From an uncultured Paracoccaceae bacterium (GTDB lineage: Bacteria; Pseudomonadota; Alphaproteobacteria; Rhodobacterales; Rhodobacteraceae): DNA of 64,000 nucleotides. Positions 46,356 through 52,207 of the stretch are shown one piece after another; the stretch's first letter is position 1, and each line of letters starts with the position of its first letter. The position numbers and the translations under genes are program-made. The stretch is from the NCBI GenBank assembly GCA_947494445.1, contig CANLVD010000015.1, positions 1-64,000 on the forward strand, in the 5' to 3' direction. The notes beneath the pieces are model-generated. The model ran no database searches. It saw only the letters and a program-made list of their open reading frames with translations, and was not told the origin of the DNA.

Positions 46356-48170
46356 ATGGCAACGTCCATGCCCGCGCGTCTGATCCGCATTGCACTGGCT
46401 GTGCTGGTGCTGGCGACGCTCTTTGTGGCGGGGGCCGCACTTGGCTATCGCACCGGCATCACAGCGCTGGCGGACCGGGGCCGTGCGGACCTGACCCGCG
46501 CCGTAGACAGGCTCAACTCCCAGATGGAGCGCTACGCGACCCTTCCCGCCGTGCTGGGCGAGCATCCGCTTCTGCAATCCCTGTCGCTCAATCCCGCGCC
46601 CGGGCAGGTTCTTCAGGCCAACCGACTGCTGGAACGCGCAACCGGCCATTCGGGCGCGCTCGACATCTACCTCAAGGACATCACCGGCACAGTGATCGCC
46701 ACCTCCAACCACGCTTTGCCGCGCAGCTTCATGGGGCGCAATTACGACTGGAGGCCCTATTTCATCGACGCCATGGCGGGCGAGCTTGCCGGGTATCACG
46801 CGGTTGGCGTCGCCTCTGACCAGCGCGGATATTACTTCTCGCATACCGTATCCGCGCAAAGCCGGGTGACCGGTGTGCTGACCGTCAAGGTCGATCTGGA
46901 AGGGATCGAGGATGTCTGGCGAGACGACCCCCAGACCCTGTTCTTTTCCGACCGCAACGACGTCATCTTCCTGTCCAATCGGGAGGCGTTCCTGCTGCGC
47001 CGTCTGGGCGATGCCAACAGCCCGCTGCCCGAACGCCAATATGCCGAGCGGGACATCACCGCCTTGCCTGAGATCTCGCAATCCATGCATTTCGGCCAGC
47101 GGATCTGGGATTTCACCGATACTGACATCCTGCCCGGGCGCGCTGTGCTGATCACCATGCCGGTGGACCGCATTGATATGACCGGGCACATCCTTCTGCC
47201 AAGTGATGCGGCCGAAGCTCAGGCGCTCATCTGGGGTGCGCTTGCGGCCACACTTGGCGGCATCATCGTGCTCACGCTCACCGTTCTTTCGCTCCGCCGC
47301 CGTGCACTGGCGCGCGAGCTTGCCCGCGAGGAACAGGCCAAGGCAGAGCTTGAACAACAGGTCGCGCGCCGCACGAAGGCACTGCGTGAAACCAACGCAC
47401 AGCTTTTTGCCGAAGTCGAAGAACGCAAACAGGCCGAGGCCACGCTCAGGCGTGTGCAGGATGAGCTGGTGCAGGCCGGAAAACTGACCTCGCTGGGCGA
47501 GATGGCCGCAGGCATAAGCCATGAACTGAACCAGCCGCTTACCGCGATGCAGACCCTTGCCGACAGCACCGCGATTTTGATCCAGCGCGAGCGTTTTGAC
47601 GACGTGATCGCCAACACCGGAAAGATTGCCCAGCTTGCCACTCGCATGGGCCGGATCATCAAGAACCTGCGTGCATTTGCCCGCAAGGAAGGGGAGCCTG
47701 CCACGGATGTCGATCTGGTCGCAGTCGTGAATGACGCGCTCGGCCTCAGCGAAGGGCGGCTGACCAAAGCAGGTGCACTGGTGATCTGGTCACCGCCTGC
47801 GGATCCCGTGCTTGTGCGCGGTGGTCAGGTGCGTCTGCAACAGGTGGTGATCAATCTGATCTCGAACGCGCTCGATGCCATGGCAGGCCAGACCGGGCCG
47901 CAAACCCTGACCCTGACGCTGTATGAAGGGGCGGAGGCCACGACGCTCAGCCTGCGCGACAGTGGCCCGGGGCTGAGCGCGCCTGATCGTGTCTTCGATC
48001 CCTTCTATTCCACCAAGACCGTGGGCGAGGGGCTGGGCCTTGGCCTTTCGATTTCCTACGGCATTGTGCAAAGCTTCGGCGGGCGGATCACCGGGCAGAA
48101 CTATCCCGAAGGCGGCGCGATCTTCACCATGACCTTGACGCCTGTCAGTCTGAACCGGGCCGTGGCATGA
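46356..48170 (+). CDS. DctB-type sensor histidine kinase
   Basis: The 604-residue kinase has a membrane helix at 9-30, a periplasmic double-Cache sensor (~35-285) containing NYDWRPYF and RGYYFSHTV, a second helix (~292-312), a coiled linker and the catalytic core: H-box with His389 in AGISHELNQPLTAM, N-box NLISNALDAM and G-box GLGLGLSISYGIV. DctB-type sensors detect C4-dicarboxylates. Met5 at 46368 is an alternative start. The response-regulator gene overlaps by 4 bp. Confidence 0.9.
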   Translation: MATSMPARLIRIALAVLVLATLFVAGAALGYRTGITALADRGRADLTRAVDRLNSQMERYATLPAVLGEHPLLQSLSLNPAPGQVLQANRLLERATGHSGALDIYLKDITGTVIATSNHALPRSFMGRNYDWRPYFIDAMAGELAGYHAVGVASDQRGYYFSHTVSAQSRVTGVLTVKVDLEGIEDVWRDDPQTLFFSDRNDVIFLSNREAFLLRRLGDANSPLPERQYAERDITALPEISQSMHFGQRIWDFTDTDILPGRAVLITMPVDRIDMTGHILLPSDAAEAQALIWGALAATLGGIIVLTLTVLSLRRRALARELAREEQAKAELEQQVARRTKALRETNAQLFAEVEERKQAEATLRRVQDELVQAGKLTSLGEMAAGISHELNQPLTAMQTLADSTAILIQRERFDDVIANTGKIAQLATRMGRIIKNLRAFARKEGEPATDVDLVAVVNDALGLSEGRLTKAGALVIWSPPADPVLVRGGQVRLQQVVINLISNALDAMAGQTGPQTLTLTLYEGAEATTLSLRDSGPGLSAPDRVFDPFYSTKTVGEGLGLGLSISYGIVQSFGGRITGQNYPEGGAIFTMTLTPVSLNRAVA

Positions 48171-48793
48171 GCACGCGCGGGCCCATCCTGTTTCTCGACG
48201 ATGATGCGGATGTCCGCATGGCCATCAGCCAGTCGCTTGATCTGGCAGGCTTCGAGGTGCGGGCCTGTCGCGCCGTGATCGAGGCGACAGACCACCTGTC
48301 ACCGGGCTTTCCCGGCGTCGTGCTCACAGACATTCGCATGCCGGGCAAGGACGGCTTTGCCTTTCTCGATCGGTGCCAGCGGATGGATGCGGACCTGCCT
48401 GTTGTGGTCCTGACCGGTGAGGGAGATGTGCCCATGGCCGTGGAGGCCATGAGCGCGGGGGCGTTCGGATTTCTGGAAAAGCCCTGTGCGCCTCAGATCC
48501 TGATCGAGACGCTTGACCGGGCGCTGGCCGCGCGGACCGGGACGCTGACCCGCAGGCGAGAGCTTGCCGGGGGGATCGCCCGGATCGCGCTGGAACGCGG
48601 GGCCGGGCAGGGCGCATTGGCCACCCAGATGGAAATGGTCGAAAAGCTCCTGATCGAGGCCGAGCTGACCCATCACGGCGGTCGGGTTGCGGCGGTGGCT
48701 GAGGCGCTGGGCCTGCCGCGCAAGACGCTCTATGACAAGTTGAAACGGCATCATCTGGATCCGGCTGAGTTTCGGGACATCACGAATCGCTAG
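48167..48793 (+). CDS. Short response regulator, receiver plus Fis-type HTH
   Basis: The 208-residue regulator starts with a receiver domain: ILFLDDDADVR acidic pocket, phospho-acceptor Asp55 in VVLTDIRMPG, Thr in VVVLTGEGDV and Lys in GFLEKPC. A C-terminal Fis-type HTH (RVAAVAEALGLPRKTLYDKLKRH) resembles the end of DctD. The AAA+ sigma54-interaction domain that full DctD carries between them is absent, leaving a linker of ~40 residues, as in RegA/PrrA-type regulators. It therefore cannot activate sigma54 promoters in the usual way. It lies between the DctB-type kinase and dctPQM. Confidence 0.88.
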   Translation: MSTRGPILFLDDDADVRMAISQSLDLAGFEVRACRAVIEATDHLSPGFPGVVLTDIRMPGKDGFAFLDRCQRMDADLPVVVLTGEGDVPMAVEAMSAGAFGFLEKPCAPQILIETLDRALAARTGTLTRRRELAGGIARIALERGAGQGALATQMEMVEKLLIEAELTHHGGRVAAVAEALGLPRKTLYDKLKRHHLDPAEFRDITNR

Positions 48794-48822
48794 TCTAGAC
48801 CAGTGCACCCCGGTGTTGCGTC

Positions 48823-48842
48823 TTGTGCGGATTTCCGCACAA
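48823..48842. promoter_or_regulatory. DctD-like palindrome before dctP
   Basis: TTGTGCGGATTTCCGCACAA is a palindrome with 9-bp arms and two central bases. It closely resembles the dyads bound by rhizobial DctD upstream of dctA, as I recall them. It begins 30 bp after the response-regulator gene and ends 174 bp before dctP. The adjacent short regulator, whose HTH resembles DctD, is the expected ligand. Confidence 0.65.
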
Positions 48843-48860
48843 ACGCCATGATCCTGACTC

Positions 48861-48883
48861 GAAAGAGTTATGAAAGAACTACG
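48861..48883. repeat. Exact second copy of the GAGTTATGAAAGAACT motif
   Basis: These 23 bases match 21073-21095 on the opposite strand exactly. The copy is 18 bp downstream of the DctD-like palindrome and 133 bp before dctP, oriented toward dctP as the other is toward the GT-B gene. Confidence 0.6.
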
Positions 48884-49016
48884 CAAAAACTACAGAAAAC
48901 ACTCACTTTTTCAGCCCCACCGTACGCTGCTTCAATTCCTGTTAGACAGCGCCCTTTGTCGCTCTATCCTATCTCGCAACCCGGCCCACCGGTCCGGGCA
49001 ACACTGGGAGAGAAAC

Positions 49017-50018
49017 ATGAAAAAGATCATGACCTTTGCGGCAGCCGTCGCAATGTCCTTCGGCGCATCCAGCGCCATTGCAGCCTGTGATGCAGGCGAA
49101 GAAGTTATCAAGTTCAGCCACGTCACCAACACCGACCGTCACCCCAAGGGGATCGCGGCATCCTTGCTGGCAGAGCGGGTCAATTCCGAGATGAACGGCA
49201 AAGCCTGTATGGAGGTTTTCCCCTCCTCTCAGCTTTACAATGACGATCAGGTGCTTGAGGCGATGCTGAACGGCGACGTACAGCTTGCAGCCCCATCGCT
49301 GTCCAAGTTCGAAGCCTTCACCAAGCAGTTCCGCATCTTCGATTTGCCGTTTATGTTCAAGAACATCGACGCGGTTGATGCCTTCCAGGCGTCAGACACC
49401 GGACAGGCCATGAAAGACAGCATGCAGCGCCGCGGCCTGCAGGGTCTGGCCTTCTGGCACAATGGCATGAAGCAGATGTCGGCCAAAGTGCCGTTGATCC
49501 TGCCGACGGACGCGAACGGCCTGAAGTTCCGGGTTCAGACATCCGACGTGCTGAAAGCCCAAATGGCTGCAATTGGTGGTTCACCTCAGCCAATGGCCTT
49601 CTCCGAGGTTTATGGCGCGCTCCAGACCGGCGTTGTGGACGGACAGGAAAACACATGGTCCAACATTTACGGCCAGAAGTTCTTCGAAGTGCAGGACGGC
49701 ATCACCGAAACCAATCACGGCATCATCGACTACCTTGTCGTGACTTCCGTCGAGTGGATGGAAGGCCTTGATGCAGACGTGCGCGATCAGTTCGTGACGA
49801 TCCTCAACGAAGTGACCGAGACCCGCAACAAGGAAGCCTTTGCAGTCAACGAGCAGGCCAAAGCAGCCATCGTTGAAGCAGGCGGCGTGATCCGTCAGCT
49901 GGACGCAACCCAGCGTCAGGCATGGGTTGATGCGATGAAACCTGTCTGGTCCGAGTTCGAAGGTGATGTTGGCAAGGACAACATCATGGCGGCTCAGGAA
50001 ATGAACGCAAACTACTGA
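49017..50018 (+). CDS. dctP: TRAP transporter solute-binding protein, DctP family
   Basis: The 333-residue exported protein has a signal peptide (1-22, ending AIA) and the DctP fold: IKFSHVTNTDRHPKGIAA, VFPSSQLYNDDQVLEAMLNGDVQL, LKFRVQTSDV with the carboxylate-binding Arg, and GVVDGQENTWSNIY. These features fit an organic-acid ligand such as C4-dicarboxylates, in line with the DctB-like sensor. GGGAGAG lies 5 nt ahead of ATG 49017; earlier in-frame starts lack protein character. Confidence 0.94.
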   Translation: MKKIMTFAAAVAMSFGASSAIAACDAGEEVIKFSHVTNTDRHPKGIAASLLAERVNSEMNGKACMEVFPSSQLYNDDQVLEAMLNGDVQLAAPSLSKFEAFTKQFRIFDLPFMFKNIDAVDAFQASDTGQAMKDSMQRRGLQGLAFWHNGMKQMSAKVPLILPTDANGLKFRVQTSDVLKAQMAAIGGSPQPMAFSEVYGALQTGVVDGQENTWSNIYGQKFFEVQDGITETNHGIIDYLVVTSVEWMEGLDADVRDQFVTILNEVTETRNKEAFAVNEQAKAAIVEAGGVIRQLDATQRQAWVDAMKPVWSEFEGDVGKDNIMAAQEMNANY

Positions 50019-50080: not shown

Positions 50081-50800
50081 ATGTCTCAGTCGTCTGGGAA
50101 CGCGCCCGGTGCAACCGTCACCGACCGGTTGGAAGAAACCTTCATAGCCATCATACTTGGTGCCATGACGGTGTTGACCTTTGTCAACGTGATCTTCCGC
50201 TACACCTTTGACTGGGGGATCGTGAACTGGCTTGAGGCCACCCTGAATTTCACATGGCCTGACAGCATCCCGTGGGGCTATGAAACCACCCTGATCCTGT
50301 TTTCCTGGCTGGTGCTGTTCGGCATGAGCTATTGCGTGAAGAAGACAGCGCATCTGGGCGTCGACGCGGTCATCAACGTGTTGTCAGCACCCAGCCGCCG
50401 CATTCTCGCGCTGGTCGCGGGCGCCTGCTGCATCCTCTATACCTACCTGCTGATCAAAGGGTCGTGGGACTATTTCGCGCCCTTTGTGAACCTGCCCGGC
50501 ACCACGGGTCACTGGTTCCCAACCGGTCTGGAAGAGATGAGTTTCCGCAATCGTCGTGCTTTCTACACATTTGATGAGATCGGTATGCCTGCCTTCCTCA
50601 GTTGGCTGGGGCCGGTCTTTGGCGAGGAATTCGAGAAGCTGCCGCGTTTCGTAGGCTACATGATCCTGCCCATCGGCACCGTTCTTCTGATGGTCCGCTT
50701 TATTCAGGCCACCCGTCGGGTGTGGATGGAAAAAGCAGACCGGATCATCGCGGCACATGAGGTCGAAGACGATCTCGAAACTCTCAAGAAAGAGCATTAA
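50081..50800 (+). CDS. dctQ: TRAP transporter small permease, DctQ
   Basis: The 239-residue membrane protein has the four-span DctQ layout: AIILGAMTVLTFVNVIFRY, then TTLILFSWLVLFGMSYCVKKTAHLGVDAV, ILALVAGACCILYTYLL and GYMILPIGTVLLMVRFI. It is longer than typical DctQ (~170 aa), owing to periplasmic loops around NFTWPDSIPWG and GTTGHWFPTG. GGGAG precedes the ATG. dctM begins 3 bp after its stop. Confidence 0.9.
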   Translation: MSQSSGNAPGATVTDRLEETFIAIILGAMTVLTFVNVIFRYTFDWGIVNWLEATLNFTWPDSIPWGYETTLILFSWLVLFGMSYCVKKTAHLGVDAVINVLSAPSRRILALVAGACCILYTYLLIKGSWDYFAPFVNLPGTTGHWFPTGLEEMSFRNRRAFYTFDEIGMPAFLSWLGPVFGEEFEKLPRFVGYMILPIGTVLLMVRFIQATRRVWMEKADRIIAAHEVEDDLETLKKEH

Positions 50801-50803
50801 GTC

Positions 50804-52207
50804 ATGGAAGTTGCTATCCTATTTGCGATGATCATCGGCTTCTTGCTGATCGGCGTCCCCATCGCCGTATCCCTTGGCCTGAGTTCAATCCTGTTCCTTC
50901 TGGTGCTCTCGGACACCTCGCTTGCCTCCATCGCACAGTCGCTGTTTCAGGCCATGTACGGCCATGCCACGCTGATGGCGATCCCGTTTTTCATTCTGGC
51001 CTCGACCTTCATGACAACGGGAGGGGTCTCGCGCAGGATCATCGATTTCTCGATTGCCTGCGTGGGACATTTCCCCGGAGGACTGGCGATTGCGGGCGTT
51101 TTTGCCTGTATGATGTTCGCGGCCCTCTCAGGCTCATCACCTGCAACCGTTGTGGCCATCGGGTCCATCGTGATCGTGGCCATGAAGAAGGTCGGCTACA
51201 CCAAGGATTTCGCCGCCGGTGTGATCTGTACCGCAGGCACGCTGGGCATCCTGATCCCGCCATCCATCGTGATGGTTGTCTATGCCTCCGTCACGGATGT
51301 GTCCGTTGGGCGGATGTTCCTTGCAGGTGTTGTGCCCGGCGTCATGGCCGGTCTGATGCTGATGATTGCGATCTATATCACAGCCCGGATCAGGAACCTG
51401 CCAAAGGGTGAATGGAAGGGCTGGGGTGAGATCTTCGACACCGGTGCGCGCGCCTTCTGGGGCCTGATGCTGATCGTCGTGATTATGGTAGGCATCTACG
51501 GCATTCCGGGGCTGATCCCGGCGATTTTCACGCCCACAGAGGCCGCAGCCGTGTCGGCGGTTTATGCCTTTGTTGTGGCCTGTTTCGTCTACCGGGACAT
51601 GGGGCCATTGAAACCGGCCGAGGACGACCCGACCCAGACGCCCCTGCCGCTTTACAGCAAGCCCTATGCGCTGGTGACGTCGTTCTTTCACGCCGACACC
51701 AGGCATGTGTTGTTCGAATCCGGCAAATTGACCACGACGCTGCTTTTCATCATCGCCAACGCCTTGATCCTGAAGCATGTTCTGACCGATGAGCAGATCC
51801 CGCAGGCGATTGCCGCGAGCATGCTAGAGGCGGGATATGGCGCGGTGATGTTCCTAGTGATCGTGAACCTGATCCTGCTGATCGGCGGTCAGTTCATGGA
51901 GCCGTCGGGACTGATCGTGATCGTCGCGCCGCTGGTCTTTCCCATTGCCATCGAACTTGGGATCGACCCGATTCACCTGGGCATCATCATGGTGGTAAAC
52001 ATGGAGATCGGGATGATCACGCCGCCTGTTGGTCTGAACCTCTTCGTGACCTCGGGCGTGGCAGGCATGCCGATGATGCGGGTTGTGCGCGCAGCCTTCC
52101 CGTGGCTGTGCATCCTCTTTGTCTTCCTGATCATGGTTACGTACATTCCCGAGATTTCGCTGATGTTGCCAACAGCGATAATGGGACCGGAAACGATCAT
52201 CAAATAG
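50804..52207 (+). CDS. dctM: TRAP transporter large permease, DctM
   Basis: The 467-residue permease has about twelve spans and the sodium/substrate transport signatures of DctM, including FAALSGSSPATVVAIGSI near 105-122 and the C-terminal LGIIMVVNMEIGMITPPVGLNLFV. A cytoplasmic loop near residues 275-300 (PAEDDPTQTPLPLY) is longer than in most homologues. DctQ and DctM form the membrane complex fed by DctP. Confidence 0.94.
   Translation: MEVAILFAMIIGFLLIGVPIAVSLGLSSILFLLVLSDTSLASIAQSLFQAMYGHATLMAIPFFILASTFMTTGGVSRRIIDFSIACVGHFPGGLAIAGVFACMMFAALSGSSPATVVAIGSIVIVAMKKVGYTKDFAAGVICTAGTLGILIPPSIVMVVYASVTDVSVGRMFLAGVVPGVMAGLMLMIAIYITARIRNLPKGEWKGWGEIFDTGARAFWGLMLIVVIMVGIYGIPGLIPAIFTPTEAAAVSAVYAFVVACFVYRDMGPLKPAEDDPTQTPLPLYSKPYALVTSFFHADTRHVLFESGKLTTTLLFIIANALILKHVLTDEQIPQAIAASMLEAGYGAVMFLVIVNLILLIGGQFMEPSGLIVIVAPLVFPIAIELGIDPIHLGIIMVVNMEIGMITPPVGLNLFVTSGVAGMPMMRVVRAAFPWLCILFVFLIMVTYIPEISLMLPTAIMGPETIIK

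Follow-up and report, generated by a model that had tools for sequence, protein, structure and literature searches.

Our analysis points, at a probability of about 0.72, to a DctB/DctD-type system in the window (the whole 64-kb stretch of DNA analysed) that works with neither sigma54 nor an AAA+ domain: a phosphorylated regulator dimer on one box would activate a sigma70-type dctPQM promoter. Because the motor domain and the special sigma factor are both missing, these genes are probably switched on in a simpler way than is usual for such switches. The features concerned are:

46356-48170, + strand: DctB-type sensor histidine kinase, 604 aa (Pfam; PDB matches to DctB sensor domains)
48167-48793, + strand: response regulator, 208 aa, with receiver, helical linker and Fis-type HTH (Pfam, AlphaFold model, short-form alignment)
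48823-48842, no strand assigned: DctD-type box TTGTGCGGATTTCCGCACAA, perfect 8+8 bp palindrome in single copy (pattern match, conservation ahead of dctP)
48869-48881, + strand: weak IHF-like match, 2 mismatches of 9, away from the relatives' place at +57/58
48942-48948, + strand: predicted -35 region TTAGACA (hexamer TAGACA, 48943-48948), a consensus match only
48965-48970, + strand: predicted -10 TATCCT, 16 bp from the -35 (9/12 consensus matches)
49017-50018, + strand: dctP, TRAP solute-binding protein, 333 aa (PF03480 above cut-off)
50081-50800, + strand: dctQ, TRAP small permease, 239 aa (PF04290 above cut-off)
50804-52207, + strand: dctM, TRAP large permease, 467 aa (PF06808 above cut-off)

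The kinase, the regulator and the box

The kinase carried HisKA and HATPase_c domains above the Pfam cut-offs, while its periplasmic sensor matched dCache_1 at 41.7 bits, slightly below the cut-off of 45. In the PDB, the sensor part matched 3by9 ('Sensor protein', E 2.5e-31) as well as the DctB chains 2zbb and 3e4o. The start of the regulator (48167) overlaps the kinase stop (48170). Pfam recognised a receiver (PF00072, residues 7-116) and a Fis-family HTH (PF02954, HTH_8, residues 155-194) in the regulator, and no other family at E <= 0.001, Sigma54_activat included. The latter was also not found by Pfam in three other regulators of this AAA+-less kind (hereafter short forms) that were scanned, and was found in Sinorhizobium DctD.

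An AlphaFold model of the 208-aa protein (5-row alignment; mean pLDDT 83.6, pTM 0.61) consisted of the receiver, a single long helix (109-145) and the HTH helices. The best solved relatives were the S. meliloti DctD receiver structures 1l5y and 1qkk (E ~1e-29, residues 7-130), and the recognition helix, PRKTLYDKLKRH, is almost the same as that of Sinorhizobium, PRKTFYDKLQRH. Alignment of five short forms revealed 84 (nearly) invariant columns, including the receiver acid pocket; the phosphorylation-site region and the recognition helix were invariant.

Downstream, the consecutive dctP, dctQ and dctM genes form a TRAP transporter, DctPQM, with C4-dicarboxylates as its putative substrate. The first gene begins at 49017, behind a Shine-Dalgarno sequence (GGGAGAG, 49006-49012). 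The box matched the pattern TTGTGCGG-N4-CCGCACAA without mismatch, and its centre lies 184 bp from the dctP ATG. Two further sites in the window had 3 mismatches each, where shuffles give 0.57 sites with <=3 mismatches. Genome-wide, no site but the box had fewer than 2 mismatches, and 19 sites had <=3. As a reversed-pattern control gave 53 such sites, weaker boxes are not enriched across the genome and we rejected a regulon elsewhere in it.

Ahead of the canonical dctA of Sinorhizobium sp. B11 stand two boxes of this kind with a 33-bp spacing, a perfect -24/-12 and an IHF consensus match, and the regulator there has GAFTGA. The box is therefore a DctD box, and the pairing of boxes is therefore old. 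A preliminary description of this DNA had proposed a DctB-like kinase, a regulator reduced to a receiver and a DctD-like Fis-type HTH, and a near-perfect DctD-type palindrome ahead of dctP; all three hold, and the palindrome is in fact perfect.

Sigma54 in the genome and at the promoter

The genome is a draft of 4.36 Mb in 33 contigs (99.98% complete). RpoN was not detected in it, with no match to either PF04552 (Sigma54_DBD) or PF00309 (Sigma54_AID), in a search for which four of 14 control genomes were positive. Eight Sigma54_activat matches were present, four of which we read as NtrC-family from their sequences (NtrC-like, NtrX-like, a second DctD-like protein and PAS-AAA+); GAFTGA was found in none of these four. 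The last of them, a PAS-AAA+-HTH protein (L036; contig C8:142491-142994 of the own genome, G000), has GAFAGA at that place even though RpoN was not detected.

The preliminary description had named a sigma54 promoter at dctP as a feature to look for. Between the box and dctP, there was no -24/-12 site with <=2 mismatches, the best having 4, and we rejected such a promoter on this ground. The 64-kb window as a whole held 41 sites with <=2 mismatches (45 expected). Across 78 proximal regions, sites with <=3 mismatches occurred in 35% (37% in shuffles); two regions had a site with 1 mismatch and seven a site with 2, and a raw count of GG-N10-GC gave 36 of the 78. With no RpoN, no GAFTGA and no -24/-12 ahead of dctP, sigma54 control of this gene is very unlikely. 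RpoN is patchy in the family, scoring above the cut-off in 44 of 149 sampled genomes (48 at E <= 0.001); some of the 149 have several copies.

Short and long relatives

In a family sample of 394 genomes, nearly all of different genera, short forms called at E <= 1e-50 occurred in seven, the own genome included (G000, G001, G063, G074, G146, G230 and G364). These span six genera and their proteins have diverged to 50-63% identity, with receiver, HTH, frame, synteny and box kept in all seven. An alignment search of named genomes returned at least 535 relatives, and the best 80 were used. Two of them (L043 and L044) were G364 and G063 again and were dropped; the other 78 (L045-L122) were long forms of ~404 to 434 aa. 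Among these best matches of the at least 535, GAFTGA was deleted in 78 of 78 and the Walker A lysine was lost in 68 and kept in 10. Three long forms were scanned with Pfam, and all still gave a Sigma54_activat match. The three canonical outgroups (Azospirillum twice, Sinorhizobium) kept both the lysine and GAFTGA.

The kinase–regulator pair and the box were found across Rhodobacteraceae, mostly beside dctPQM. The kinase adjoins the regulator in the 110 loci examined, and a co-directional dctP follows in 79 of 85. No dctP was seen at that place in the other six (L053, L055, L086, L104, L105 and L112); several of these loci are contig ends.

Two proteins lie apart from this set. A DctD-like protein of Sphingomonas parapaucimobilis (L125, 4983-6299), encoded beside a dctA-type symporter, keeps the Walker A lysine and has no GAFTGA. 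Two weak boxes with a 32-bp spacing precede this dctA, and the protein reads as a case of leaving sigma54 on its own. Another receiver-Fis regulator that has no AAA+ (L146, 4092-4676), highly divergent at 42% identity, occurs in G139 and is possibly an independent loss of the domain. That genome has no detectable RpoN, its dctPQM lies on the strand opposite to the kinase, and an inverted repeat, TTTCGCA-N4-TGCGAAA, stands between dctP and the kinase.

Order of events

In a receiver+HTH tree (quick method without bootstrap; G230 on a long branch), the seven short forms lay on one side of a branch with SH-aLRT 97. A quick kinase tree grouped six short-form kinases at 98 and left G230 outside; a tree with all seven held together had a log-likelihood 42 units above the free tree (p-AU 0.972). 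A single origin of the seven is likely on these sequence trees.

As the long forms already lack GAFTGA, and mostly the Walker A lysine, loss of the AAA+ domain came after independence from sigma54. By this comparison, sigma54 independence is placed first and removal of the decayed ATPase later. GAFTGA would have been lost in the Rhodobacteraceae DctD lineage and the Walker A lysine then in most members. The whole domain would then have been removed in one small lineage, with receiver, HTH and DNA target retained. RpoN was present in two of the seven short-form genomes, G074 and G146, and not detected in G001, of the same genus as the own genome. Of 30 genomes checked, six were RpoN-positive, and GAFTGA-less long forms occur there too. 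Sigma54 independence in these two sets thus rests on the missing GAFTGA or AAA+.

These results divide the earlier proposal of a Dct system rewired from sigma54 to a sigma70-type promoter through loss of AAA+. What stands is the absence of any sign of sigma54 use here (RpoN, GAFTGA or -24/-12) and the conservation, across the family, of a box upstream of dctP. What does not stand is AAA+ loss as the rewiring step, because all 78 long relatives examined (from the best 80 of at least 535) were already without GAFTGA and RpoN is still present in two of the seven genomes whose regulator lacks AAA+.

DNA layout and predicted promoter

A best box with <=3 mismatches stood ahead of dctP in 7/7 short and 70/72 long loci (the latter from the best 80 of at least 535 relatives); shuffles reach <=2 mismatches in 0.26%. 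The misses were L054 and L064, the latter having a box ahead of a second dctP. A second box (<=4 mismatches) 31 to 33 bp off was present in 57/70 long versus 0/7 short loci (Fisher p 3.2e-5), and in ~1% of shuffles. The distance from box to ATG was 169 to 188 bp in short loci, and had a median of 197 for the proximal box of two-box loci. Long forms that keep the Walker A lysine may sit near the short forms, and 5 of the 8 such loci examined had a single box. Since the rows are related and this group is also often single-boxed, we take the single box and AAA+ loss as an association only, and rejected the one as a direct result of the other.

Downstream of the proximal box, CTTG fell within +100 to +111 in 37 of the 70 long loci, where eleven control windows gave 1 to 8; 32 cases had its first base at +106 to +108. 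We take it to be a putative sigma70-type -35. IHF-like sites (<=1 mismatch of 9, one orientation, position from the proximal box) piled up at +56 to +58 (18 matches), +45 to +47 (6) and +106/107 (5), against 0.24 per 10-bp bin expected from mononucleotide shuffles. The box pair, often an IHF-like site and the sharply placed CTTG appear as an enhancer-like layout of the long-form loci. G074 and G146 were the only short forms with an IHF-like site at <=1 mismatch; the window has none, and its weaker match at 48869-48881 may be chance.

Between 48700 and 49100, TTAGACA and TATCCT, at +109 and +132 from the box, were the sole pair resembling a promoter (shuffles give 0.2 such sites), and TTAGACA takes the place that CTTG has relative to the box in long-form loci. 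Their positions lead us to predict a dctP start near 48977 and a box position near -144. The window -35 is imperfect, and the long-form CTTG occurs at that place in 0/7 short forms; a hexamer like TATCCT lies at +129 to +133 in 4/7, and a TATnnT-like -10 is missing in 3/7. An inverted repeat (CCCGGCCCACCGGTCCGGG, 48980-48998) stands directly ahead of the dctP Shine-Dalgarno, and several relatives have a stem there. As a candidate 5'-UTR hairpin it was rejected (mean z -1.4 over 78 loci against mononucleotide shuffles, with little signal in several short forms).

Proposed mechanism and alternatives

The DctB-type sensor and the adjoining dctPQM suggest C4-dicarboxylates as the ligand that the kinase would sense. 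It would then phosphorylate the 208-aa regulator, which would bind the single palindrome at 48823-48842 as a dimer. The bound dimer would recruit or assist sigma70 RNA polymerase at the predicted promoter (48942-48970), without ATP hydrolysis. We infer activation, not repression, of dctPQM. If proteins of this lineage activate at all, ATP-driven remodelling cannot be their general means of doing so, judging from an AAA+ domain that is gone here and an ATP site that is broken in most relatives. The predicted box position, about -144, is an enhancer-like distance, away from RNA polymerase and far for a dimer without AAA+; the direct control proposed earlier is for this reason only a possibility. 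We offer only tentatively the stronger statement that an NtrC-family regulator can activate a sigma70 promoter from there without AAA+, such that receiver, HTH, one box and DNA bending would suffice and the AAA+ of its relatives would be a passenger at most.

The direction of control is the point on which sequence is silent, and GAFTGA-less members of the NtrC family are able to repress sigma70 promoters, as the available text of one study has it for Caulobacter NtrC at hvyA and sciP (PMC10274813). The regulator might thus be an anti-activator or repressor that blocks something at the box while another factor drives dctPQM. We consider this unlikely, because the predicted promoter elements lie ~100 bp downstream, uncovered by the box, and the conserved distance from box to promoter and ATG suits activation. 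It is more doubtful still that the regulator borrows an AAA+ domain by mixed assembly with another NtrC-family protein. The genome does have a second DctB/DctD-like pair (L147, 3138-6264; contig C3 of G000), whose 464-aa regulator keeps AAA+. That regulator is likewise without GAFTGA, however, its receiver differs (47% identity over 139 aa), only one box precedes dctP and the 13 kb around the second pair hold no box with <=3 mismatches.

Decay to a functionless, pseudogene-like remnant would account for the domain loss as such and for the rarity of short forms (7/394 genomes). We regard it as highly improbable, given that the frame, the receiver, the HTH, the synteny and the box persist in seven genomes from six genera at 50-63% identity and that so many columns are (nearly) invariant in the five aligned short forms. 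Scarcely any probability attaches to a sigma54 system whose RpoN was missed, or which a divergent sigma54 serves. The assembly is a draft in 33 contigs and RpoN is patchy in the family (44/149); yet completeness is 99.98%, two RpoN domain models were silent here while controls were positive, RpoN was not detected in G001 either, the regulator has no AAA+ and there is no -24/-12 site. Activation by a phosphorylated dimer at a sigma70-type promoter is the reading that we retain.

Relation to known systems

Among solved structures, the rhizobial DctB sensor and DctD receiver are closest to those of the window, and the recognition helix and palindromic box are shared. Rhizobial DctB/DctD is sigma54-dependent, whereas the window system has no AAA+, GAFTGA, RpoN or -24/-12; its target is dctA with two boxes, whereas the window regulator has dctPQM (TRAP) with one. 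The redox regulators RegA/ActR/PrrA also consist of a receiver and a Fis-type HTH without AAA+, so the bare architecture is not new. Their partner kinase and target differ from those of the window regulator, of which the NCBIfam ActR/PrrA model (NF033791) matched the receiver only, at 56.6 bits against a cut-off of 250. Rhodobacter DctR is a LuxR/FixJ-type HTH protein and is set apart by that description. The likeness of Rhodobacter DctS/DctR to the window system is that dctPQM is under two-component control, as given in one paper (PMC4268860) and in an entry of the reference list of another (PMC8276074).

According to the accessible parts of one study (PMC10274813), the GAFTGA-less NtrC of Rhodobacter capsulatus acts from an enhancer-like site to activate sigma70 RNA polymerase and is reported to need ATP binding; GAFTGA-less NtrC acting with sigma70 in other Rhodobacterales, and Caulobacter NtrC, are published there too. 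The R. capsulatus and Caulobacter proteins resemble the window regulator as alphaproteobacterial NtrC-family members that left sigma54, in their case via L1 loop loss, but they retain AAA+. Our closest long relatives fit this GAFTGA-less NtrC-type class in sequence; in the window protein the AAA+ domain is absent altogether. In the portion available, a survey of sigma54 activators sets aside paralogues with a broken GAFTGA and places HupR of R. capsulatus among regulators that left sigma54 (PMC3162934). The open-licence literature, to the extent of its available text, yielded no account of a DctD from which GAFTGA or AAA+ has gone. Sigma54-free NtrC-family proteins are already known, and a DctD-type system without AAA+ is a variant of them.

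How Caulobacter NtrC activates sigma70 RNA polymerase is called unclear by the authors in the available text (PMC10274813), and the role of AAA+ in NtrC-family proteins that left sigma54 is a question on which the graded DctD series bears. Within one orthologous system, Walker A is intact without GAFTGA in some members, the lysine is lost in others and the domain is gone in a few, with the DNA target kept throughout. Such graded states, compared at one promoter, would be suited to show what the ATPase is for.
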